Source: Nocardioides iriomotensis
GTDB taxonomy: Bacteria; Actinomycetota; Actinomycetes; Propionibacteriales; Nocardioidaceae
NCBI RefSeq assembly: GCF_004168035.1
Contig: NZ_SDPU01000013.1
Span: 1-64,000 of the forward strand
Direction: 5' to 3'
Length of the DNA stretch: 64,000 nucleotides
Made by a program: the position numbers and the translations under genes. This document shows positions 6,612 through 40,396 of the stretch, in pieces (the first letter of the stretch is position 1; every line of letters begins with the position of its first letter). The notes beneath the pieces were generated by a model. The model saw only the letters and a list, made by a program, of their open reading frames with translations. It did no database searches and was not told the DNA's origin.

Positions 6612-7973
6612 CTACGGACGGAGCAGACGGCGCGCCAGGCTGCGGGCGGCCTCCGGGTACGCGGCGGCGAGCAGCCCGACCGGCGCGAGCACGTAGTCGC
6701 GGTCGACGACCGTGCGCGGGTGCTCCGGGAGCTGCCAGCCCGCACCGGGGTCCGCGGCGAGGTGACGGGTCAGCACTCCATCGGCGGGGCTGTCGCTGTG
6801 CCGCAGAACGCCGCCGGACCCGACCAGCAGGTCCACCTCGCGCAGGTCCTTGCCGCTGCGCTCGACGACCCGCCCCTCGGGGCTGAACACGACCTGCGAC
6901 CGGCCGGCGTGCCGGCGCAGCGCGACGGTGACCGCCGCGGCGGCGATGGCGAGGTCGGCGTCGGCGCCAAGTGCGTCGCCGGGGAGGTACGACGGGTCGG
7001 CCTGCCGGACGGCGGCGGCGTCGGCCAGCGCCGGGTCGAGCAGCCCAGCGGCGACACCCTCCTCCACGGTGCTGATCGCGCTCCAGCGCATGCCGAGGTC
7101 GCCCTCGACGGTCCGGCTGACCGGCACGGTCGCCACCACCTGCCGGGAGAGACCGGCGTCCTCGGGGTCGACCTCCACGACGGAGTGCACGTCGGTGGTG
7201 GCGCCGCCGACGTCGACGACCACCACGTCGCTGCCGAGCTCGTCCGCGAGCAGCTCGACCGCGGTGAGCACGACATCGGGCGTCGCCCCGCGCACCATCG
7301 CGGTGAAGCGCTCCCCCGAGTCGCGCCTGGACAGGTGCTTGCCGCCGATCACGTGCCGCAGGAACATCTCGCGGATCGCCGCCCGCGCCGACTCGGGCGC
7401 GAGCACGCCGATGCGCGGCACCACGTTGTCGGCCAGGACGTGCGGCGTACCGGACCCGGTGAGCAGCGCCGCCACCTCGGCCTGCGCGTCGACGTTGCCC
7501 GCGACCACGACCGGGCCGCGCCAGCGCGCCCTGGCCAGCGTGGTCGCGCAGCCGACGAGAACCTCCTCGTTGCCCCCGTCGGTGCCGCCGACGAGCAGCA
7601 GCACGTCGGGCTTGGTGGCGCGCAGCGTCGTGACGTCGGCGCGGGCCAGCCCGCCGTGCGTGACGTGCACGACCCGGCCGCCGCTGGACAGCGCGACCCG
7701 GCGTCCGGCCTCGGCGGTGACCAGCTCCTCGTTGCCGACGACGGCGATCCGCAGCCCGCCGCCGGCCGAGGAGCAGGCCAGCACCTCGGCGTCGTCCGCC
7801 CGCGGGTCGGCCGCGGCCAGTGCCGCCCGGCAGGCGTCCCAGCCGTCGAGCACGTCGGTGTCGATCGTGGTCCGGTGGTCGGCGGTCGCGACGAGTGCGC
7901 CGCTCGGCACCTCGACCAGCGCCGCCTTGGTGAACGTGGACCCGAAGTCCACGCAGGCGACGACGTCAGCCAA
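6612..7973 (-). CDS. MutL/GlmL family protein (B12 mutase reactivation-type ATPase)
   Basis: This 453-residue protein opens with the ASKHA-fold phosphate loop VDFGSTFTKAALVEV and has a second phosphate motif, VVVDVGGATTDVHSV, near residue 250. SSAGGGLRIAVVG and VLLLVGGTDGGNEE are hallmarks of the MutL (GlmL) family. Members lie beside glutamate mutase or ornithine/lysine aminomutase genes and are thought to reactivate the B12 enzyme. No mutase subunit is present in this window, so its partner is unknown. The start appears to be TTG 7973, which overlaps the stop of the cystathionine gamma-lyase gene by 8 bases; a GTG seven codons in would cut the phosphate loop. It is probably co-transcribed with the upstream PLP enzyme. 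Confidence 0.82.
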   Translation of the reverse strand: MADVVACVDFGSTFTKAALVEVPSGALVATADHRTTIDTDVLDGWDACRAALAAADPRADDAEVLACSSAGGGLRIAVVGNEELVTAEAGRRVALSSGGRVVHVTHGGLARADVTTLRATKPDVLLLVGGTDGGNEEVLVGCATTLARARWRGPVVVAGNVDAQAEVAALLTGSGTPHVLADNVVPRIGVLAPESARAAIREMFLRHVIGGKHLSRRDSGERFTAMVRGATPDVVLTAVELLADELGSDVVVVDVGGATTDVHSVVEVDPEDAGLSRQVVATVPVSRTVEGDLGMRWSAISTVEEGVAAGLLDPALADAAAVRQADPSYLPGDALGADADLAIAAAAVTVALRRHAGRSQVVFSPEGRVVERSGKDLREVDLLVGSGGVLRHSDSPADGVLTRHLAADPGAGWQLPEHPRTVVDRDYVLAPVGLLAAAYPEAARSLARRLLRP

Positions 7974-9150
7974 GCGCCTGCTCCAGGTCGGCCAGCAGGT
8001 CGTCGGCGGTCTCGATGCCGACCGAGAGGCGAACCAGGTCGTCGGGCACCTCGAGGTCGGTGCCGGCCACCGAGGCGTGCGTCATCAGGCCGGGGTGCTC
8101 GATCAGCGACTCGACCCCACCGAGGGACTCCCCGAGCGTGAAGACCTCGGCCTTCTCGCAGACCGCGAGCGCCTGCTGCCGCCCGCCGGCGACCCGGAAG
8201 GACACCATCCCGCCGTACCGCTTCATCTGGCGGGACGCGACCGCGTGACCGGGGTGCTCGGGCAGACCGGGGTAGATCACCTCGGTGACTTGCGGGTGCT
8301 TGGTCAGGAAGTCGACGACCTTCTCGGCGTTGTCGCAGTGCCGGTCCATCCGCAGCGCGAGCGTGCGGATGCCGCGCAGCGTCAGCCACGCGTCGAACGG
8401 CCCGGACACGGCGCCGATGGCGTTCTGGTGGAACGTGATCTTCTCGGCGAGGTCGAGGTCGCGCACCACGATCGCGCCGCCGACGACGTCGCTGTGCCCG
8501 CCGACGTACTTCGTGGTCGAGTGCACGACCACGTCGGCGCCAAGGGTGAGCGGCTGCTGGAGGTACGGCGAGGCGAAGGTGTTGTCGACGACGAGCAGCG
8601 CGCCGCCCTCGTGGGCGACGGCGGCGACCGCCTCGATGTCACCGATGTTGAGCATCGGGTTCGTCGGCGTCTCGAGCCAGACGATCTTGGTCTCGCCCGG
8701 ACGGATCGCGGCGCGGATCGCGTCGACGTCGGAGACCGGCGCGGACGTGTGGGACAGGCCCCAGGGCTCCTCGACCTTGGCGAAGAGGCGGTAGGTGCCG
8801 CCGTACGCGTCGTCGGGGACGACCAGGTGGTCGCCCGGCCTGCAGACCGCCTTGAGCAGGGTGTGCTCGGAGGCGAGCCCGCTCGCGAACGCGAACCCGC
8901 GCTCGCCCTCCTCCAGCGCCGCGATGTTGCCCTCGAGGGCGGTGCGGGTGGGGTTGGCGGAGCGGGAGTACTCGTAGCCGCCGCGCAGGCCGCCGACGCC
9001 GTCCTGCTTGTAGGTCGAGGTGGCGAAGATGGGCGGGATCACCGCGCCGGTGGTCGGGTCGGGCTCGTACCCCGCGTGGATGGCGCGGGTCTCGAACCCG
9101 GACTTGTGCCGGTGCTGCTGGCCCGTGGAGGCGCTGGTCTGGTCGGACAT
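7966..9150 (-). CDS. Cystathionine gamma-synthase/gamma-lyase (Cys/Met metabolism PLP enzyme)
   Basis: This 394-residue enzyme belongs to the Cys/Met-metabolism PLP family. Conserved parts include [16 protein letters not shown], the cofactor motif [14 protein letters not shown], and the PLP lysine in [16 protein letters not shown] near residue 210. It acts in transsulfuration, either making cystathionine from an O-acyl-homoserine or cleaving it to cysteine, and sequence alone does not separate these. Since a cystathionine beta-synthase gene stands at 29141-30532, a reverse transsulfuration role is reasonable. ATG 9150 (MSDQTSAST) was chosen over in-frame codons further upstream, which run into the msrA promoter region. 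Confidence 0.9.
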
Positions 9151-9235
9151 GCGTGCGAGCCTAGACCTGGGAAGGTTCGAGCCGTCCGGCGCGTTGGGGA
9201 GAGCGAACCCCCCACTGATCGAGGAGGAAGTGCCC

Positions 9236-9889
9236 GTGCTGTTCAACCGTCACAAGAGCACGCTGCCGACCGAGGAGCAGGCGCTGAAGGGGCGCACCGA
9301 GCAGTGGTTCACGCTGGCCGAGGAGCACCTCGTGCTGCACACCCCGCTGGTCACCCCCGACAGCGAGATCCCCGAGGGCCACGAGGTCGCGGTGTTCGGG
9401 CTGGGCTGCTTCTGGGGCGCCGAGGAGGCGTTCTGGCAGGTCCCGGGCGTCTGGTCGACGTCCGTCGGTTACGCCGGCGGCCTCACCCCGCACCCGTCGT
9501 ACGAGCAGGTCTGCTCCGGGCAGACCGGCCACACCGAGGCCGTCCGGGTCGTCTACGACCCCGCGAAGGTGTCGTACGCCGACCTGGTGAAGCTGTTCTT
9601 CACGATCCACGACCCGACGCAGGGCATGCGCCAGGGCAACGACCACGGCACGCAGTACCGCTCGGCGATCTACACCACGACCCCCGAGCAGGCCGAGGTC
9701 GCGGCGCGGCTCCGGGCCGCCTACGAGCCCGTGCTCACGCAGCGCGGGTACGGCCCGATCACCACCGAGATCAAGCCGGCGCCGACGTACTACTACGCCG
9801 AGGACTACCACCAGCAGTACCTCGTGAAGAACCCCCACGGCTACCGCTGCCACTCGGCCACGGGGATCCCGTTTCCCTCGGACGCCTGA
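9236..9889 (+). CDS. msrA: Peptide methionine (S)-S-oxide reductase
   Basis: This 217-residue MsrA reduces methionine-S-sulfoxide in proteins and free methionine, using thioredoxin. The catalytic cysteine is in GCFWG (Cys58), and the conserved stretches [22 protein letters not shown] and FFTIHDPTQ follow. A further cysteine in [10 protein letters not shown] near the C-terminus is a candidate resolving residue. The length matches the E. coli-type enzyme with its ~50-residue N-terminal extension. GTG 9236 was preferred over GTG 9230, because GAGGAGG at 9221-9227 is correctly spaced for it. It is divergent from the transsulfuration gene, with 85 bases between. Confidence 0.94.
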
Positions 9890-9910: not shown

Positions 9911-10265
9911 GTGCCTGATGAGGAGCCGCGGACCGCGCCCGATAAGTGCACCGTCGTCACGCTCTTGCGGCTCCATGCGGTTCCGCGAGGAGTTCGAGCG
10001 TCTTGACGCCGAGCTGACCCTGGCGGGACACGTGGTGCTGACCCCGATCGTCCTGGATCCGGCCACGAAGCTTGACGCAGCGGAACGCGCACGGCTCGCC
10101 CGGGTACACCTCCAGAGGATCGCGATGTCGGACCAGGTCCTCATCGTCAACGTGGGCGACTACGTCGGGGAAAGCACCCGTCGCGAGATCGAGCACGCAC
10201 GATCGCGTGGGATCCCGGTGAGCTTCCTGGAGCCACACGCCAACGATGACGACGACGCCGCCTGA
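9911..10265 (+). pseudogene. Frameshifted nucleoside 2-deoxyribosyltransferase-like (DUF4406-type) protein
   Basis: Related proteins start with a nucleotide-binding strand of the form VVTLCGSxRFRxEF. Here that motif is split over two frames. From GTG 9911 the reading PDKCTVVTL runs to 9964, while CGSMRFREEFERLDAELTLAGHVVLTP is read from 9966 in the +1 frame. Removing one T at 9965 joins them into one protein of about 117 residues. The remainder (MSDQVLIVNVGDYVGESTRREIEHARSRGIPVSFLEP) is intact to TGA 10265. Without the shift, translation could begin only inside the motif at ATG 9975. It is either a real mutation or a sequencing error. Confidence 0.7.
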
Positions 10266-10281
10266 GATTTCCTGCAGGATC

Positions 10282-10327
10282 GTGTCGATTCCACCGCACG
10301 CCGTTCGTCAGTGAGGTGGAGTCGGAC
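10282..10327. other. Intergenic hairpin between the frameshifted gene and YCII gene
   Basis: GTCGATTCCACC near 10284-10295 pairs with GGTGGAGTCGGA at 10315-10326 over about 11 positions, including two G-T pairs, with a 19-base loop. It stands after the stop at 10265 and about 30 bases before the YCII start. It may act as a weak terminator or as an element in the YCII leader. Confidence 0.35.
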
Positions 10328-10357
10328 ATCGGGTCCGCGCGCGCAGGAGGAGCAGAC

Positions 10358-10708
10358 ATGGCGGAGTACCTCATCTACTTCAACCAGCAGTGGGTCGGCG
10401 ACCACCCCCCGGAGTGGTTCGGCACGCGGGTGGAGCCGAGCATGGCGGTCGTCCACGAGATGGAGAAGGCCGGCGTCCTCGTCTACGCCGGCGGTCTGGA
10501 GGAGGGGGGACCGGTCTACGGCGCCGACGCGACGAGCGGCACGGTCATGGTCACCGAGGGGCCGTACGCCGAGACGACGGAGTTCCTGGGCGGGCTGACG
10601 ATCATCGACGTGCCCGACCTCGAGGAGGCCAAGAGGTGGGCGGGCAAGGTGGCGGAGGGCTGCGGCTGGCCGCAGGAGGTCCGCCGCTTCAGCCCGCGCC
10701 CCGGCTAG
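10358..10708 (+). CDS. YCII-related (DGPF domain) protein
   Basis: This 116-residue protein of the YCII/DGPF superfamily has a ferredoxin-like fold. Conserved parts are MAEYLIYFNQQW, the middle segment VYAGGLEEGGPVYGADATSGTVMVTEGPYAET, and EFLGGLTIIDVPDLEEAKRWAGKV. Such proteins often lie near ECF sigma factor genes. Their activity is poorly known; the founder YciI has cleavage activity on a chlorinated lactone. The start at ATG 10358 has AGGAGGAGCAG directly upstream, favouring it over an in-frame ATG 14 codons earlier. The stop overlaps the stop of the convergent amidohydrolase gene by four bases. Confidence 0.88.
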   Translation: MAEYLIYFNQQWVGDHPPEWFGTRVEPSMAVVHEMEKAGVLVYAGGLEEGGPVYGADATSGTVMVTEGPYAETTEFLGGLTIIDVPDLEEAKRWAGKVAEGCGWPQEVRRFSPRPG

Positions 10709-11904
10709 GCGAGGTCGACCGGGGTCCCTCGCACGAGGACGTGTCGCGGCCGGCCGAGCAGCGACGGGTCCTCGGCGAGGTCGCCGTCGACGACGAGCAG
10801 GTCGGCGGCGTACCCCTCGGCGAGCCGCCCGGTCTCCGCCGCGAGCCCGCAGGCCTCCGCGGCCACCGACGTGGCGGCTGCCAGGGCCTCGGCCACCGGG
10901 TAGCCGCTCTCGACCATCTCGCCGACCGTGCGCCAGACGTTGCCGTGCTGCTTGGGCGGGGCCATCCCCGAGTCCACGCCGCTGACCACGGCCACCCCGT
11001 GCTCGCGGAGCCGGGAGAGATCGCGCATGCGGGAGGCGTAGAGCTCGTCGAACGAGCCGACCCCGAGTCTGGCCATCAGCGCCGCGAGGGCAGGCGGAGG
11101 CTCGGGCATCAGGGCGTGCAAGGAGCGGTCGTTGCCCATCGTCAGACCCACGTACACACCCTGCCGAGCCACCTCGTCCAGCAGGTCGTCGTCGATCCGC
11201 GGTCCCTGCGAGGTGAGCCCCGTGAAGTGCTCGATCCCGTCGACGCCGGCGGCCAGCGCGTTCTGCATGGCGGCGAGCGAGTGTGCGTGCGCGACCACGG
11301 GTAGCCCGGCGTCGTGCGCCGCGTCGACCAGCCCGGTGAGCTCGGCAACGGTGAACTGGGTACCCAGCTGGTCCGTCCCCGGCGTTGCGAAGCCGCCCGA
11401 GGCCATCACCTTGACCACGTCGACTCCGCGCCCGGCGTGCTCCGCGACGACCGCACGCAGGTCGCCGTCCACGACCCCACCGAGGAAGTGGCAGTGCCCG
11501 CCCGGGATCGTGAGCGGAGGCCCGGAGGCCACGACGCGCGGCAGGCCTGGGCGCTCCCGAGACGCCAGAGTGCGGAAACCTCGGTCACCCAGGTCCCGGA
11601 CCGTCGTCACTCCGGCCACCGCGTGCGCGCGCAGGGAGCTCGCGATGACGGTGTCGATCTCCGCGTCGGACAGCGCACCGGCGCGCTCCAGCCCGCCGAT
11701 CGTGCCATCGGCGACCAGGTGGGTGTGGCCGTCCACCAGGCCGGGCAGCACGGTGCCGGCGTGCTCCGTCACCTCGACGCCGTCCGGAAGGTCGGCCGCA
11801 CCCGTCACGACACCGACGATGCGCCCGGACTCGTGGAGCACCGTGGCACCGCCGGGAAGGAACCGGGCACCGTCGAAAGCGTGTGCCGCGCGGACCGCCT
11901 GCAT
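10705..11904 (-). CDS. Metal-dependent amidohydrolase family protein
   Basis: This 399-residue protein of the amidohydrolase superfamily has the metal-binding HTH of DGHTHLVADGT at residues 60-62 and a candidate bridging lysine in VVKVMASGGF. Further histidines lie in VVAHAHSLAAMQNALAAGVDGIEHFTGL, and the late aspartate in VVSGVDSGM. The C-terminus returns to the small beta-sandwich with LAEGYAADLLVVDGD. It resembles the prolidase/imidazolonepropionase-like branch, so the substrate is probably a cyclic amide or a dipeptide; this is not resolved. ATG 11904 begins MQAVRAAHAFDG, matching the family start. Confidence 0.87.
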   Translation of the reverse strand: MQAVRAAHAFDGARFLPGGATVLHESGRIVGVVTGAADLPDGVEVTEHAGTVLPGLVDGHTHLVADGTIGGLERAGALSDAEIDTVIASSLRAHAVAGVTTVRDLGDRGFRTLASRERPGLPRVVASGPPLTIPGGHCHFLGGVVDGDLRAVVAEHAGRGVDVVKVMASGGFATPGTDQLGTQFTVAELTGLVDAAHDAGLPVVAHAHSLAAMQNALAAGVDGIEHFTGLTSQGPRIDDDLLDEVARQGVYVGLTMGNDRSLHALMPEPPPALAALMARLGVGSFDELYASRMRDLSRLREHGVAVVSGVDSGMAPPKQHGNVWRTVGEMVESGYPVAEALAAATSVAAEACGLAAETGRLAEGYAADLLVVDGDLAEDPSLLGRPRHVLVRGTPVDLA

Positions 11905-12004
11905 GTGATCACGATCCCGTCGCGGCGCCCCCTGCGGCATCACCCGGCCGGGCCATTCGCCCGACCGATTCCGCCCCGGATCCGAGAGCGGCCCGCGTTC
12001 CGTT

Positions 12005-12010
12005 GATAAT
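12005..12010 (+). promoter_or_regulatory. Possible -10 element upstream of the LCP gene
   Basis: GATAAT at 12005-12010, inside GTTGATAATCTCC, is one of few AT-rich hexamers in the 194-base gap between the amidohydrolase and LCP starts. It would give a 5' leader of about 80 bases for the LCP gene. No good -35 hexamer lies 17 bases before it, so the call is weak. Confidence 0.3.
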
Positions 12011-12098
12011 CTCCGGGTGGCGGACCGGCTGGTGCGGGCCGCCGACCGCACGGGGCGAGGGCTCCGGGCGTCGACCTCACGAAGTCCCGAGGTAGTCC

Positions 12099-13634
12099 GT
12101 GGCGAGCACGATGCACCGTGTCGCGCCCCCCGCGCAGAAGGAGCGCCCGGGGAAGCGCGCGCTGCGGCCATCCCGTCGCCGGGCCCGGACCCTCGGCGGG
12201 GCGTTGCTCGTGACGCTGCTGTCGGCGCTGCTGCCGGGCACCGGGTTCCTCTGGTCCGGGCGCAAGAGCCTCGGCTTCCTGGTGCTCCCACCCGCGCTGA
12301 CGGTGATCGCGCTCGCCGCCTGGTACGCCGTGCGTGACCCGCGCGCGGTGCTCGACCTGGCCTTCGACCCCACCCGGCTGCAGGTCGCGGCGGTCGCGCT
12401 CGGCGCCGGGCTCGTGATCTGGGCGCTGATCGTGCTGACGACGTACTTCATGGTGCGGCCGCTGCCGAGCCGCGCGATCCACACGTTCGTCGGCACCGCG
12501 TTCGTCGGCCTGCTGTGCGCCGCCGTCGCGGCGCCGGTCGTCGTCGGCGCGCGCTACGCCATGGTCCAGGCGGACCTCGTGCAGACGGTGTTCCAGGACA
12601 ACACCAGCGCGACCGCGCCCAAGAACGTCACCGTCAAGGACCCGTGGGCCGGACGCGACCGGGTCAACGTGCTGCTCCTCGGCGGCGACGGAGGCGTGCA
12701 CCGCGAGGGCGTGCGCACCGACACGATGATCCTGCTGAGCCTCGACACCCGCACCGGCCGCACGATCATGTTCAGCCTCCCGCGCAACATGATGAACGCG
12801 CAGTTCCCGGCCGACAGCCCGCTGCACGACCTCTACCCCTCCGGCTTCGGCGGGTACGGCGACGCGGGCAACTGGATGCTCAACGCGGTCTACCGGATGG
12901 TGCCGATCCTGCACCCCGGCATCCTCGGCACGTCCGACAACGAGGGCGCCGACGCGCTCAAGCTCGCCATCCAGGGCAGCCTCGGCGTCCCGGTCGACTA
13001 CTACGTGCTGGTCAACCTCCGGGGTTTCCGGCAGATCGTCGACGCGATGGGCGGCGTCACCGTCAACATCAGCTCGCCGATCCCGGTCGGCGGCAACACC
13101 GACCTCGGCATCCTGCCCGACCGCTACCTGCAGCCGGGCCCGGACCAGCGGCTCGACGGCATGGACGCGCTCTGGTACTCCCGCGGCCGGTACGGCTCTG
13201 ACGACTACCAGCGCATGGAGCGCCAGCGCTGCATGATCGACGCGATCATCGACGAGGCCAAGCCGCTCAACCTGCTGCGCCGCTACCAGGGGCTCGCCGA
13301 GGCCGGGAAGAAGATCATCCGCACCGACATCCCCAGCAAGCTGCTGCCGGCGTTCGTCGACCTGGCGATGGAGATCAAGGACGCCAGCGTCACCTCGGTG
13401 GTGTTCCGCTCCTCCGAGGCGTTCTTCCCGGGCGACCCCGACTTCGCCTGGATGCGGCAGAAGGTGCGCGCGGCGCTGAAGCCGCCGCCCGACCGGCCCC
13501 GCGACCGCGGCGAGAGCCGGCCGTCCGCGACGGCGTCACCGACCCCGACGCCCGGTGTGCCGAGCGAGGAGGCCGACCCGGGTACGGCGGTCGAGGCCAA
13601 GGACACCTGCGGGTACCACCCCGAGACCTCCTGA
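12099..13634 (+). CDS. LCP (LytR-CpsA-Psr) family cell-wall polymer ligase
   Basis: This is a 511-residue membrane-anchored LCP protein. After a basic cytosolic start there are hydrophobic segments between about residues 30 and 160, then the extracellular catalytic domain. LLLGGDGGVHREGVRTDTMILLSLDTRTGRTIMFSLPRNM holds the conserved Arg/Asp residues that bind the polyprenyl pyrophosphate. LRGFRQIVDAMGGVTVNI and DGMDALWYSRGRYGSDDYQRMERQR are the other family blocks. LCP enzymes move glycopolymers such as teichoic acid or arabinogalactan from lipid carriers to peptidoglycan. GTG 12099 has GAGG six bases upstream; ATG 12111 is the alternative. The C-terminal ~60 residues are a Pro/Ser/Thr tail. 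Confidence 0.9.
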   Translation: MASTMHRVAPPAQKERPGKRALRPSRRRARTLGGALLVTLLSALLPGTGFLWSGRKSLGFLVLPPALTVIALAAWYAVRDPRAVLDLAFDPTRLQVAAVALGAGLVIWALIVLTTYFMVRPLPSRAIHTFVGTAFVGLLCAAVAAPVVVGARYAMVQADLVQTVFQDNTSATAPKNVTVKDPWAGRDRVNVLLLGGDGGVHREGVRTDTMILLSLDTRTGRTIMFSLPRNMMNAQFPADSPLHDLYPSGFGGYGDAGNWMLNAVYRMVPILHPGILGTSDNEGADALKLAIQGSLGVPVDYYVLVNLRGFRQIVDAMGGVTVNISSPIPVGGNTDLGILPDRYLQPGPDQRLDGMDALWYSRGRYGSDDYQRMERQRCMIDAIIDEAKPLNLLRRYQGLAEAGKKIIRTDIPSKLLPAFVDLAMEIKDASVTSVVFRSSEAFFPGDPDFAWMRQKVRAALKPPPDRPRDRGESRPSATASPTPTPGVPSEEADPGTAVEAKDTCGYHPETS

Positions 13635-35210: not shown

Positions 35211-36482
35211 ATGGCCACGATCACCCCCGTCCGCCGCGGCGTGCACCCCGCCTGGCTCGTCGCCGCCGTCGCGTTCGTGGCGCTGATCGGGGCCGCCGGG
35301 TTCCGCGCCGCGCCCGGCGTGCTGATGGTGCCCCTGCAGGACGAGTTCGGCTGGAGCCGCGGCGTGCTGTCGCTGGCGGTGGGCGTCAACCTGGTGCTGT
35401 TCGGGCTCACCGCGCCGTTCGCGGCCGCCCTGATGGACCGCTTCGGCATCCGCCGGGTCACCTCGGTGGCCCTGACGCTGATCGCCTTCGGGGCGGGCCT
35501 GACGGTCTTCGTCCAGCAGAGCTGGCAGATCGTGCTCACCTGGGGCGTGCTGATCGGGCTCGGCACCGGGTCGATGGCGCTGGTGTTCGCGGCCACCGTC
35601 GCCAACCGCTGGTTCGTGACGCGGCGCGGCCTGGTGATGGGCATCCTCACCGCGGGCAGTGCGACCGGCCAGCTCGTCTTCCTGCCGATCGTCGCCGCCA
35701 CCGCCGAGGTGGCCGGCTGGCGCACCGCCTCCCTGGTCATCGCCGCAGCCGCCCTCGCGGTCGTCCCGCTCGTGTGGCTCGTGCTGCGCGACCACCCCAG
35801 CGACCTCGGCGTCATGGCGTACGGCGCGTCGGAGCCCACGCCCCGGCCGGTCCCGCACCCGGCCGGCGCCGCCCGCGCCGCGATCCAGGCGTTCCGCGAC
35901 GCCTCGCACAGCCGCACCTTCTGGGCGCTGATGGCCGGCTTCGCGATCTGCGGCGCCACCACCAACGGGCTGATCGGCACCCACTTCGTGCCCGCCGCCC
36001 ACGACCACGGCATGGCGCAGACGACCGCCGCCGGCCTGCTCGCCGTCGTCGGCATCTTCGACATCGTCGGCACGGTCGCCTCCGGCTGGCTCACCGACCG
36101 GTTCGACCCCCGCCTGCTGCTGGGCTTCTACTACTTCTTCCGCGGCGTCGGCCTGGCGCTGCTGCCGGTGCTGCTCAACGACGCCGTGCACCCGAGCATG
36201 GTCGCCTTCGTGGTGATCTACGGCCTGGACTGGGTGGCCACCGTGCCGCCGACCGTCGCGCTGTGCCGCAACGTCTTTGGCGACTCCGGCACGGTGGTGT
36301 TCGGCTGGGTGTTCGCGTCGCACCAGGTCGGTGCCGCGCTCGCCTCGGTGGCCGCCGGCTTCGCGCGCGACGCGACCGGGACCTACACGGCCGCCTGGTT
36401 CAGCGCCGCCGCGCTCTGCGTCGTGGCGGCCGCGCTGTCGGTCGGGATCCGTCGGGACGCGCGGCACCCCGTCACGGGGTGA
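35211..36482 (+). CDS. MFS transporter
   Basis: This 423-residue protein has twelve hydrophobic segments. The loop motif ALMDRFGIRRV after helix 2 and its later counterpart SGWLTDRFDPRLLLG are MFS signatures. GVLMVPLQDEFGWSRGVLSLAVGVNLVLFG resembles the OFA/monocarboxylate porter branch. Substrate may be a small organic acid or drug. The gene is controlled probably by the divergent HxlR regulator. The following acyl-CoA synthetase gene starts 16 bases later and may be co-transcribed. Confidence 0.9.
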   Translation: MATITPVRRGVHPAWLVAAVAFVALIGAAGFRAAPGVLMVPLQDEFGWSRGVLSLAVGVNLVLFGLTAPFAAALMDRFGIRRVTSVALTLIAFGAGLTVFVQQSWQIVLTWGVLIGLGTGSMALVFAATVANRWFVTRRGLVMGILTAGSATGQLVFLPIVAATAEVAGWRTASLVIAAAALAVVPLVWLVLRDHPSDLGVMAYGASEPTPRPVPHPAGAARAAIQAFRDASHSRTFWALMAGFAICGATTNGLIGTHFVPAAHDHGMAQTTAAGLLAVVGIFDIVGTVASGWLTDRFDPRLLLGFYYFFRGVGLALLPVLLNDAVHPSMVAFVVIYGLDWVATVPPTVALCRNVFGDSGTVVFGWVFASHQVGAALASVAAGFARDATGTYTAAWFSAAALCVVAAALSVGIRRDARHPVTG

Positions 36483-36498: not shown

Positions 36499-38067
36499 AT
36501 GGATGCTGCGCTCGGCCTTGCTCCCCTGACCCCGCTCGCCCAGCTCGACCGGGCCGCGGACTACTTCCCCGACCGGGTCGCCTACCGCTTCGAGGGCGCG
36601 TCGACCACCTACGCCGGGCTCCGCGAGCAGGTACGGCGGGCGGCGGGGCTGCTGGTCGAGGCCGGTGTGCGGCGCGGGGACCGGGTGGCGGTGCTGGCGC
36701 GCAACGTGCCCGTCGCGCTGCTCGCGCACTTCGCGGTGCCGTGGGCCGGCGGCGTGCTGGTCGCGCTCAACCACCGGCTCGCCGCCGGCGAGCTGCACGG
36801 CATCCTCGAGCACGCCGAGCCGCGGCTGCTCGTCGCCGAGCAGGACCTCGCGGACCTCGCGGACGACGCCGTCGCGGGTCTCGACCTCCCGGTGCTGCCC
36901 GACTCCGCGCTCCTGACGGCGGCCGTGTCATCGGCGGACGCCGTACCCGAGCGGCACGGGGTCACCGACGAGCTCGACCTGATCACCCTCAACTACACGA
37001 GCGGCACGACCGGTTCGCCGAAGGGCGTGATGTACCGGCACCGCGGCGCCGCCCTGCAGTCGATCGCGATGGCGTACCACCTGCGGCTGGAGATGGACTC
37101 GGTCTACCTCTGGACGCTGCCGATGTTCCACTGCAACGGCTGGTCGTTCCCGTGGGCGGTCGCCGCGGCCGGCGCGACGTCGCTGTGCACCGGCACCACC
37201 GACCCGGAGCAGCTGTGGCAGCTGATCCGGGACGAGACGGTCACCCACTTCTGCGCCGCGCCGACCCTGCTGACCAGCCTGCTGACGTCGCCCGCCGCGG
37301 CCCCGGTGGAGCAGCCCCTCACCGTGGCCACCGGCGGTGCCCCGCCGACCCCGGCGCTGATCCGGCGGGCCGAGCAGCTCGGCCTGCACGTGGTGCACCT
37401 CTACGGGCTGACCGAGACCTACGGCCCCTCGCTGATCTGCGACTGGCAGCCGGAGTGGGACGGGCTGCCCGAGGACGAGCAGGCCGAGAAGCTGTCCCGG
37501 CAGGGCATCCCCAACGTCATGGGCGCGACGGTCACCCTGGAGCCGGTGCCGGGCGACGACGGCCGGGGGCTCGCCGAGCTGACGATCGCCGGCAACACGG
37601 TGATGGCGGGCTACTACCGCGACGACGCGGCGACGGCCGCGGCCACGGTCGGCGACGACCGGTTCCGCACCGGCGACCTCGGCGTGCAGCACGACGACCG
37701 CTACTTCCAGCTCCAGGACCGGGCGAAGGACGTCATCATCAGCGGCGGCGAGAACATCTCCTCGATCGAGGTCGAGCGGGTCCTCGCCGAGCACCCCGCC
37801 GTCAGCGAGTCGGCGGTGGTCGCCCGGCCGGACGAGACGTGGGGCGAGGTGCCCGTCGCGTTCGTGACGCTGAGCGACGACGCCGGCGACGTCTCCGAGG
37901 ACGAGCTGATCGAGTTCGTGAAGTCCCGGATCGCGCGCTACAAGGCGCCCAAGCACGTGGTGTTCGGGCCGCTACCGAAGACGGCGACCGGCAAGATCCA
38001 GAAGTTCGAGCTGCGGACCCGGGTCGGCGAGCAGCCCGCGGGCCCCGGGGCAGATACGCCGCGCTGA
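36499..38067 (+). CDS. Acyl-CoA synthetase (AMP-dependent synthetase/ligase)
   Basis: This 522-residue ANL-superfamily enzyme has the ATP-binding loop NYTSGTTGSPKGVMYRHRG near residue 165. GLTETYG is near 310, and RTGDLGVQHDDRYFQLQDRAKDVIISGGENISSIEVE near 390. The catalytic lysine motif PKTATGKIQKFELR lies at the C-terminus. It activates a carboxylic acid as its acyl-CoA, most likely a medium- or long-chain fatty acid. ATG 36499 lies 16 bases after the MFS stop, with GAGGG in front. Confidence 0.91.
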   Translation: MDAALGLAPLTPLAQLDRAADYFPDRVAYRFEGASTTYAGLREQVRRAAGLLVEAGVRRGDRVAVLARNVPVALLAHFAVPWAGGVLVALNHRLAAGELHGILEHAEPRLLVAEQDLADLADDAVAGLDLPVLPDSALLTAAVSSADAVPERHGVTDELDLITLNYTSGTTGSPKGVMYRHRGAALQSIAMAYHLRLEMDSVYLWTLPMFHCNGWSFPWAVAAAGATSLCTGTTDPEQLWQLIRDETVTHFCAAPTLLTSLLTSPAAAPVEQPLTVATGGAPPTPALIRRAEQLGLHVVHLYGLTETYGPSLICDWQPEWDGLPEDEQAEKLSRQGIPNVMGATVTLEPVPGDDGRGLAELTIAGNTVMAGYYRDDAATAAATVGDDRFRTGDLGVQHDDRYFQLQDRAKDVIISGGENISSIEVERVLAEHPAVSESAVVARPDETWGEVPVAFVTLSDDAGDVSEDELIEFVKSRIARYKAPKHVVFGPLPKTATGKIQKFELRTRVGEQPAGPGADTPR

Positions 38068-38146
38068 GGATGTCACCCGCGGCGCAGCGGTCCTACGCTG
38101 CGCGCTGGAGGCCCCGTCGTACCCCAGACCAGACCTGGAGGTCGAC

Positions 38147-38647
38147 ATGTCCGCTTCGCCCCGCCGCAGTGCCGCCGCCTTCGCCCTCGGCATCCTCGCC
38201 GCGCTGACGGCCGGTGTCCTGCTCAACCAGTCCACGGCGTCGGGGGCGTCGCCGAGCGACCTCTCGTTGCGCTACGAGGGGGCGACCTTCCGGTACGTCG
38301 ACGCGCCACCGCTGCAGGGGCCCGACGAGTTCGCCCCCTCGCCCGGCGACTCGTTCGTGCTCACCAACCACCTGTTCCGCGGCAAGGACAAGGTCGGGAA
38401 CCTGGCCGCCACCTGTGCTGTGGTCAAGGGCGCGACCGTTCCCGAGGACTCCCGGCTGCTCTGCTACGGCGTCTACACGCTTCCTGGCGGCACGGTCAGC
38501 GGCATCACCACCACACGGCTCGGCGGTGCGAACACGGTCATCTCGATCACCGGCGGGACCGGCCGCTACGTCGGCGCCCAGGGTGTCGCGGTGGAGCACA
38601 GCACCGGTGAGGACACCGGCACGGTGCACGTCGACTTCACGGGGTGA
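38147..38647 (+). CDS. Secreted dirigent/allene oxide cyclase-like barrel protein
   Basis: This 166-residue protein has an N-terminal signal segment (RRSAAAFALGILAALTAGVLLNQSTASGA). Its beta-barrel features include RYEGATFRYVDAPP, GDSFVLTNHLFRGKDKVGNLAATCAVVKG and ISITGGTGRYVGAQGVAVEH. The GTGRYxGAxG motif is characteristic of allene oxide cyclase barrel and dirigent-like proteins. Bacterial members are of unknown function. It should act outside the cell. The start ATG 38147 follows a GGAGG at about 38140. Confidence 0.8.
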   Translation: MSASPRRSAAAFALGILAALTAGVLLNQSTASGASPSDLSLRYEGATFRYVDAPPLQGPDEFAPSPGDSFVLTNHLFRGKDKVGNLAATCAVVKGATVPEDSRLLCYGVYTLPGGTVSGITTTRLGGANTVISITGGTGRYVGAQGVAVEHSTGEDTGTVHVDFTG

Positions 38648-38683
38648 CGCCGGTGAGCATGAGCGACCGTGGGACGGCGCGGG

Positions 38684-38756
38684 TGCCCCCGGTCAGACTC
38701 GAACTGACACTGAGAGGTGTTTAAGACCTCTGCCTCTGCCATTGGGCTACGGGGGC
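38684..38756 (-). tRNA. Class I tRNA with anticodon UAA (tRNA-Leu-like, short variable loop)
   Basis: The minus strand folds as a complete cloverleaf of 73 bases. The acceptor stem is GCCCCCG/CGGGGGC, and the D-arm is GCCC...AGGC with one mismatch. The anticodon arm is GAGGT-CTTAAAC-ACCTC, the variable loop has five bases (TCAGT), and the T-arm is GTCAG-TTCGAGT-CTGAC. Discriminator A follows, then CCC, so CCA is not encoded. The anticodon is UAA, for the rare leucine codon UUA. Bacterial leucine tRNAs normally have a long variable arm, which is absent here. Confidence 0.8.
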
Positions 38757-39538
38757 GGATCCAACAGCCCCGAGGTTACGGGCACTGGCGACGTCACGAC
38801 CCCCGGCTTGGCGAGAACGATCAGCGCAGATCGATCCAGCGCGCCGGGCCGTGGTCCATCAGCGTGAACCGTGGCGAGAAGTTCACAATCTCGGTGCCCA
38901 TGGCGAGCTGGAGCCTGCTCACGTGACTCGGGAAGGCGGCGACGGGCACGCTGGCAGTGACGCAGTTACTGTCGACCTTGGATCGCACAGACGCCGACGA
39001 ACCTTGCAGCCCCACTGTTCCCGTACGCACGCCGTCCGGGCTCACGTACACGATGATCTCGCCCACCATGACCGCGGCACCGGGATAGGCGACGATCGCC
39101 TTGTAGGCATACGACGTCCCAGGGCTGAGACTGGGCGACGAGGCCTTCCTCGTGCACCAACGCAACTTGAACGACGAACGACCGACTCCCGAGCCGAACG
39201 CGACCGATGTCAAATCTGTCGCCTTTCGCACAGACGCGTTGGCGCTCTTCCCTCCCTTGAGGGCCTCCAAGTCGTCGATCGGGTCCGATTTGGTCGTCAT
39301 GGATGAGTTGAGGCCCGCAGCGGGCCAAGCCGACAACCCGGCCACCACGACAGCGAGCATTACGAGCAGCGCCGCATGAGTGCGCGTGCGAGAACGCATG
39401 AGATCCCCCGTCTTCGTGTCACCTTGTCAAGTGCAGACACAGACTGCCAGCGCGCATCGAGCACTGCAGGCACATCGAGTCCGATGTGTCGGCGCTCACA
39501 CGAACCTTCCGCGACTATGCCATTGGGCTACGGGGGCG
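38737..39538. mobile_element. Segment flanked by 21-bp direct repeats derived from a tRNA 5' end (att-like)
   Basis: The first 20 bases of the tRNA (plus one flanking base) at 38737-38757 recur exactly at 39518-39538, in the same orientation, 781 bases away. The rest of the tRNA is not present at the second site. Between them lies one gene for a secreted protein, and the DNA is visibly less GC-rich than its surroundings. This is the arrangement left by integration into a tRNA gene. No integrase is present, so it would be a remnant or an element mobilised in trans. Confidence 0.6.
38821..39399 (-). CDS. Secreted protein of unknown function, inside the tRNA-flanked segment
   Basis: This 192-residue protein has a signal peptide (RTHAALLVMLAVVVAGLSAWPAAG, about residues 7-30). 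The mature part contains FGSGVGRSSFKLRWCTRKASSPSLSPG, then VMVGEIIVYVSPDGVRTGTVGLQGSS and NCVTASVPVAAFPSHVSRLQLAMGTEIVNFSPRFT. Two cysteines (in RWCTRK and SNCVTA) could form a disulfide. I recognise no family. The base composition is lower in GC than nearby genes, in agreement with transfer. ATG 39399 is the natural start for the signal peptide. Confidence 0.7.
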   Translation of the reverse strand: MRSRTRTHAALLVMLAVVVAGLSAWPAAGLNSSMTTKSDPIDDLEALKGGKSANASVRKATDLTSVAFGSGVGRSSFKLRWCTRKASSPSLSPGTSYAYKAIVAYPGAAVMVGEIIVYVSPDGVRTGTVGLQGSSASVRSKVDSNCVTASVPVAAFPSHVSRLQLAMGTEIVNFSPRFTLMDHGPARWIDLR

Positions 39539-39544
39539 TGGTGC

Positions 39545-40396
39545 TCAGTCTTCCAGCGCGGCCAGCGACGCCGCACGACCGAGCACCGCGTCCAGCATCG
39601 GCTCGGTGAGCTTGCCGGTGAAGGTGTTCTGCTGGCTCGGGTGGTAGCTGCCCAGCAGGACCACCTCGCGGCCGTCGGGCGCGACGAGCACGGCCTCGGC
39701 GCCGTGCCCGAACCGTGGTTTGGGCCTGGGAACGTCGTACCCCACCTCGCGGAACACCCGCAGCGCGGCGTCCCAGCCGTAGGAGCCGAGGCACACCACG
39801 GCCCGCAGCCGGTCCGAGACGAGCGCGACCTCGCGGTGCAGCCACGGCGCGCAGGTGTCGCGCTCGTCGGTCGTCGGCTTGTTGTCCGGAGGTGCGCAGC
39901 GCACGGTCGCGACCATCCGGGTCCGGACCAGCCGCTGCCCGTCGCCTGCGTGCAGCGAGGTCTCCTGCACGGCCAGCCCGACGCGGTGCAGCGAGGCGAA
40001 GAGCCAGTCGCCGGACCGGTCGCCGGTGAAGATCCGGCCGGTGCGGTTGCCGCCGTTCGCGGCGGGCGCCAGCCCCATGATCAGCACCGATGGGTGCGGG
40101 TCGCCCCAGCCGCCGATCGGCCTGCCCCAGTAGGGCTCCCCCGCGAACGACGCCCGCTTCCCCACGGCGACGTCCTCGCGCCAGCGCACCAGCCGGTCGC
40201 AGGCGCGGCACACGGAGATCGCCGCCTCGAGGTCGTCCAGGGTCGCGCCGCGCGCGGTGCGTCGTACCGCGGCAGCCGTCCGAGCCACCGGTGTGTCGGC
40301 TGTGGCGGGGTCGTCCGGCCAGCCGGTCCCCGGAGGCACCGGGGACGGGAACGCCTCGCCCGTCACCGGGTGCGGAAGCGGGACGGGCCGGACCAT
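39545..40396 (-). CDS. Uracil-DNA glycosylase, family 5 (UdgB)
   Basis: This 283-residue enzyme has the N-terminal iron-sulfur region with cysteines in [10 protein letters not shown]. Motif 1 is [28 protein letters not shown] and motif 3 is [18 protein letters not shown]. These identify the family 5 uracil-DNA glycosylases, which remove uracil and other deaminated bases from DNA. Further cysteines in [13 protein letters not shown] and DTCAPW complete the cluster ligands. The gene ends six bases after the second tRNA-derived repeat. Confidence 0.92.

Follow-up and report, generated by a model that had tools for sequence, protein, structure and literature searches.

Partial copies of tRNA genes are reported to derive usually from integrating elements (PMC9897764). 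In the Islander collection, 3760 islands are marked by a 3' fragment of the target tRNA gene and 159 of 3919 by a 5' fragment, so that insertions at the 5' side are a small minority (PMC4383910). As described there, Islander accepts the configuration in which an intact tRNA gene has a 5' fragment upstream, lists the anticodon loop, the T loop and the T/acceptor junction as crossover subsites, and requires an integrase gene and a length of 2-200 kb. Cis-mobilizable elements (CIMEs) are defined as having kept their att sites and lost integration and transfer genes (PMC5704250). Archaeal elements of the pTN3 type insert at the 5' half of tRNA genes, which in T. nautili is that of tRNA-Leu, and encode an integrase; according to the review describing them, expression of a tRNA from the promoter of an element is seldom met in bacteria (PMC8371274). 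In tRNA-dependent lysogeny, actinophages recombine with tRNA genes via a short common core, and in the cases outlined in PMC10865867 the junction does not restore the tRNA, whose role passes to the phage tRNA. Tandem islands bounded by 20-bp ssrA repeats, of which only some contain an integration module, are described in Dehalococcoides (PMC3146451). No publication on the locus presented here was found in the literature on Nocardioides tRNA-Leu genomic islands, the genus being a guess.

The locus is found in a window of 64,000 nucleotides, meaning the whole stretch of DNA that was analysed, and is made up of the following features.

38682-38756, minus strand: tRNA-Leu(UAA), intact, 75 nt
38737-38757, no strand assigned: repeat copy 1, tRNA nt 1-20 plus one upstream base
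38758-39517, no strand assigned: inserted DNA between the copies, 63.7% GC
38821-39399, minus strand: cargo gene, 192 aa, signal peptide apparent by eye, no credible relative found
39518-39538, no strand assigned: repeat copy 2, a 5' tRNA stub at the ancestral place of the 5' end of the tRNA
39545-40396, minus strand: uracil-DNA-glycosylase (UDG) family gene, PF03167, conserved neighbour used as anchor when empty sites are compared

Both 21-bp copies read TGCCATTGGGCTACGGGGGCG. They are identical, as the original prediction of an exact direct repeat at the 5' end of the tRNA had it, and 0.00 repeats of this length are expected by chance (100 shuffles of the window). The copies are spaced 781 bp start to start, with 760 bp of DNA between them, and the tRNA end of the stub and the UDG stop are 7 bp apart. 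The repeat extends to 24 bp if one mismatch is allowed; past this point the similarity of the copies, counted on the alignment, is at chance level, and the edge is therefore sharp. No further copies of the 21-mer, at up to 3 mismatches, were found in the genome (4,713,567 bases, 47 contigs). Since the repeat corresponds to tRNA nt 1-20 and one upstream base, the loose copy, upstream of the gene, represents a 5' fragment; it has the same orientation as the intact tRNA, which is the type of fragment admitted by Islander. No other of the genome's 46 tRNA calls has a UAA anticodon, and an insertion breaking this tRNA would for that reason probably be lost. At tRNA position 10 both copies carry G, where six genus relatives have T; at position 25, outside the repeat, the window tRNA has C in place of A. 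There is no sign of an imported donor tRNA, because both copies have the lineage-specific G10.

Like the islands described by Islander, the locus features an intact tRNA, a displaced 5' fragment upstream and an insert in between; unlike them, the insert lacks an integrase and spans 781 bp, and its shared block stops in the D-loop; it departs on these three counts from the published description. The two traits by which CIMEs are described, att-like repeats at both ends and no integration or transfer genes, are both present. In contrast to CIMEs, the target is the 5' end of a tRNA and the insert is far smaller, and descent from an ICE or IME with mobilization in cis by accretion would be conjectural; no related element was found in family genomes, viral contigs, phage and plasmid records or 21-mer loci. 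The use of the 5' part of a tRNA, rebuilt behind element DNA, recalls the pTN3-like elements, which differ, as reviewed, in being archaeal and in encoding an integrase. Recombination at an actinobacterial tRNA is shared with tRNA-dependent lysogeny, and tRNA-Leu genes are carried by many phages; compared with the lysogens described, an intact tRNA stands at the junction here, and phage genes are absent.

The shift in composition on which the original prediction hinged is evident. GC content is 63.7% over 38758-39517 and 72.2% in the window, and of all 760-bp stretches in the window 0.09% reach values as low as the insert; a second low-GC stretch is located at 20.8-21.1 kb. GC by codon position in the cargo gene is 0.56/0.56/0.80, the third-position value comparing with 0.92-0.99 in six neighbouring genes. 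The insert holds one convincing gene. At E up to 1, nothing in Pfam, NCBIfam, PADLOC or PDB matched its product, and PHROGs gave a single match of no note (E 0.47); the single gene with a signal peptide that could not be assigned has thus stayed so, the signal peptide being judged by eye. A single-sequence model of the protein, of low confidence (mean pLDDT 46.5, insufficient for searching by fold), is mostly beta strand after the signal peptide.

Apart from its own genome, none of 341 family genomes gave a relative of the cargo protein at E up to 0.001, none was confirmed in viral contigs, and phage and plasmid records yielded none at E up to 0.01. In a phylum sample of 396 genomes, own included, 12 genomes gave matches at E up to 0.01, that is, the gene itself and 11 weak matches, whose E ranges from 5.7e-4 to 0.0088 and is below 0.001 for three. 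Three of the 11, all from one genus (L290, L295, L296), were discarded as they are antisense to a long frame, MocR-like by eye. The remaining eight are not credible either: stop codons interrupt four of the eight, only open frames being compared, and the longest frame covering the match runs opposite to it in five (L291, L293, L297, L298, L300) and shares its strand in three (L292, L294, L299). Two weak matches in relative G004 (E 0.0037 and 0.0049) fall short of the family-wide limit of 0.001, and one of them sits in a 401-aa frame, an ATPase gene by eye. Values of E down to 2e-7, obtained by tblastn against single loci without composition correction, were not counted as evidence. The insert has neither terminal inverted repeats at its ends nor a transposase match, and a transposon or IS was rejected on these grounds.

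The locus was searched for in a set made of one genome per species, and 57 of 58 genomes, own included, were matched. Of 35 stretches compared (34 from 33 relatives, one from the own genome), 29 have the tRNA and UDG genes together, G023 being counted without anticodon assignment. The distance from the tRNA to the UDG stop is 10 bp in G004, 11 in G003, 21 in G005 and 23 in G010. The gap is 77 bp in G023 and 87 bp in G036, and G027 is read as near, so that it measures about 90 bp or less in seven of the 29 loci; UDG stops were called mechanically, the call at L052 (G027) being off (-10) and that of L041 lying inside a split match. A query made of the window flanks joined with one repeat copy was tried on these seven loci. 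The alignment crosses the junction unbroken in G003 (482 query bases, 79.1%, 409 bits), G004 (475 query bases, 79.8%, 418 bits), G005 (73.6%, 309 bits) and G010 (72.6%, 236 bits), and falls into two pieces in G023, G027 and G036. The one-piece alignments give the ancestral order, UDG then tRNA, and show that 781 bp, corresponding to the insert plus one repeat copy, were added in the lineage of the window. The empty site with one repeat copy looked for in relatives does therefore exist; fixation of the segment in all of them and the lack of a compositional shift, the two outcomes named beforehand as speaking against integration, were not encountered.

In the other 22 of the 29 loci, other ARRANGEMENTS separates tRNA and UDG by 0.8-4.7 kb; in representatives, the genes in between are an NDH2-like oxidoreductase, a cyclopropane-synthase family gene, or ACT and peptide deformylase genes. 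Direct copies exceeding 10 bp of the tRNA 5' end were absent from the loci of 30 relatives, each scanned with its own tRNA, and for this reason the wide gaps are taken as ordinary synteny differences and not as signs of an insertion hotspot. The strongest other match in the 30 loci belongs to G018, whose UDG contains 16 bp of the 3' end (E 1.4e-4). On the other side of the tRNA, a homologue of the MFS gene of the window (35211-36482) adjoins the tRNA in G003 and G004. The AMP-binding enzyme and AOC/dirigent-like genes found in the window between the MFS gene and the tRNA (36499-38647) are absent there in both; this extra segment (36.5-38.65 kb) has normal GC and no such repeat.

The tRNA genes of three genus genomes were scanned for fragments in 20-kb stretches, covering about 10 kb or less per side, and islands larger than about 10 kb are missed by such a scan. 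The 137 tRNA calls yielded one 5' case and eight cases at the 3' side. The former is the one at tRNA-Leu(UAA), the only 5' fragment among the 46 calls of the window's genome, where four other tRNAs have same-orientation 3'-side fragments downstream. No fragments were found for the 46 tRNAs of G003; the 45 of G002 have four same-orientation downstream fragments, two of which stop short of the 3' end, and one inverted match. In G002 a tRNA-Pro(GGG) (L397, ~9932-11790) is followed by a tyrosine integrase gene (PF00589) and, 1.75 kb downstream, by a 20-bp partial copy, and is a small insert with an integrase; downstream of a tRNA-Lys(TTT) (L391, ~10049-11480) a DDE-transposase-like gene with rve domains lies between two 19-bp copies of the tRNA 3' end. 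At L320 (~6750-9453, G000:C2) a 38-bp 3' fragment of tRNA-Thr(CGT) is located 2.6 kb downstream of the gene, with GAF-ANTAR, HATPase and DUF6221 genes in between. At L318 (~11326-12783, G000:C26) a HATPase gene separates tRNA-Ala(TGC) from a 32-bp 3'-side fragment (3 mismatches) 1.35 kb downstream. Neither of these two contigs has a PF00589 match.

The insert holds no integrase gene, its sole gene having no Pfam match. The genome has four PF00589 matches, all on contigs other than that of the window, and no PF07508 match. One of the four PF00589 matches lies about 0.2 kb from tRNA-Tyr(GTA) at L289 and L316 (G000:C47), and no tRNA fragment is found there within about 10 kb. The core of the original prediction, an att-like duplication of the 5' portion of a tRNA gene next to DNA that is foreign in composition and lacks an integrase, is borne out by the insertion and by the empty site. 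Some of its corollaries fared less well. As the 21-mer does not recur elsewhere in the genome, no recombinase gene could be found beside another copy. The 20-mer, at up to 2 mismatches, is present in 112 of 341 family genomes, and two copies are close together in the window's genome only; the exact 21-mer occurs in at least 118 stretches, and among the 80 exact-match loci listed no second copy was found in the stretch compared. Other cargo between the same repeats was not found in these relatives, and mobility is so far unsupported. In 78 of the 80 loci listed the match is the 5' end of tRNA-Leu(UAA), in one that of Leu(CAA), and one (L231), near the end of its stretch, has no tRNA call. The distribution of the 21-mer suggests that the host is an actinobacterium. 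Among the 79 listed tRNA loci none has an upstream 5' fragment in the stretch compared (median 4.0 kb upstream), and one (L234) has a 3' fragment. Six viral stretches carry a 19-mer form, which in all is the 5' end of a whole tRNA-Leu gene, and no element with a matching attP was identified.

Integration of att type, by an integrase since lost or acting in trans, is the best reading of the locus, and we regard it as somewhat likelier to be right than wrong. Incoming foreign DNA would have brought with it roughly the first 20 nt of a tRNA-Leu(UAA) gene and would have recombined with the host tRNA gene inside those 20 nt. The incoming copy would have become the new 5' end of the intact tRNA gene, and the original 5' end of the host would have been left beside UDG as the 21-bp stub, an outcome equivalent to attP x attB integration in the rarer 5'-fragment configuration. 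Site-specific catalysis is presumed here, and so is this order of events. A tRNA-bounded insert, a terminal 5' fragment on the correct side, regeneration of an intact gene, foreign DNA and an empty ancestral site all support this reading, and so do the end of the repeat, one base beyond the 5' end of the tRNA, and the other tRNA-bounded inserts in the genus, one of which, in G002, has a tyrosine integrase gene. The 21-mer is typical of tRNA-Leu(UAA) in many actinobacteria, and could thus be carried by an element. With no integrase in the insert, the choice is between what is left of a larger element after decay and a non-autonomous, CIME-like cassette that relies on an integrase from elsewhere. 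Against an att-type event are this same lack, the size of only 781 bp and the singleness of the case, along with the failure to find either a relative with other cargo between the repeats or an element with a matching attP. Moreover, the shared block (nt 1-20) ends in the D-loop, outside the listed integrase subsites, a scheme of which Williams 2002 is said to be the source. A more specific version, a tiny single-gene cassette that lacks an integrase, inserts via the D-arm (nt 1-20), is moved by a recombinase in trans and has its cargo upstream of, and possibly co-transcribed with, the sole UUA-reading tRNA, seems quite unlikely.

No integrase would be needed in homology-facilitated illegitimate recombination, to which we give a small but real chance. 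Linear actinobacterial DNA with the cargo gene just upstream of tRNA-Leu(UAA) would have paired with the host tRNA on one side, and would have been joined illegitimately on the other side at nt 20 of the resident tRNA. A process of this kind has been described for competent bacteria and for E. coli conjugation (PMC3240628). It agrees with a D-loop end point that matches no listed integrase subsite, with the presence of other genes directly upstream of the tRNA in relatives (22 of 29 loci) and, as would any model based on tRNA homology, with a repeat ending one base beyond the 5' end of the tRNA; yet the tRNA homology is short, 75 bp at most, G10 in both copies gives no sign of a donor tRNA, and no donor locus was found in the 341 family genomes or in the 396-genome phylum sample. 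The identity of the copies, lineage-specific base included, would be accounted for by duplication within the lineage, as in the capture at a staggered double-strand break of a foreign fragment devoid of tRNA sequence, fill-in creating a 21-bp target duplication. Such a capture would equally dispense with an integrase, and survivors would be limited to insertions keeping the sole UUA-reading tRNA intact. Its position would however be a coincidence, as the repeat ends one base past the tRNA 5' end; a stagger of 21 bp is long, and terminal inverted repeats are missing from the ends of the insert. We deem this origin unlikely. Decay of a tandem tRNA-Leu copy, the segment in between being a mere spacer, is the least probable of all, and very unlikely. 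Two other tRNAs of the genome, Ala-GGC and Glu-CTC, do have partial copies 89 and 74 bp downstream that look like decayed tandems, but these keep the 3' half and have a degraded 5' part, whereas the edge is sharp here; besides, the 760 bp are compositionally foreign and missing from the empty sites, and no relative's locus has two copies of tRNA-Leu together.

The stub should be free of tRNA constraint. By simple arithmetic, identity over 21 bp fits neutral divergence up to about 13%, and the UDG region diverges by 20-25% from genus relatives; judged from these sequences, the insertion is a recent event relative to the genus. UDG, the cargo gene and the tRNA are all read on the same strand, and transcription of tRNA-Leu(UAA) may consequently now start within the insert or reach the gene by read-through. 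A sigma-70 promoter scan of both strands gave no site, a simple scan that says little for a high-GC actinobacterium. Taken alone, one event and one orphan gene make a sound but modest finding. Surveys requiring an integrase and 2 kb would never list such an insert, and a clear case with an empty site and no integrase shows that small tRNA-bounded inserts are overlooked. If common to other cases, the D-loop end point would indicate a recombinase with an unlisted tRNA subsite.

An exact 5' end of the actinobacterial tRNA-Leu(UAA) type was also met in a Firmicute (L247, in a record titled Sporosarcina beigongshangi), by transfer or contamination. Leucine tRNAs were compared in length at 38682-38756 of the window, at L308 and at loci L302 and L347-L407. 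Both tRNA-Leu(UAA) and Leu(UAG) have a short variable arm here, being 75 and 78 nt long, respectively. Leu(CAA) measures 87 nt in the window's genome and 74-75 nt in G003 and G002. In the 79 loci sharing the same 5' end the tRNA is 73-76 nt long.
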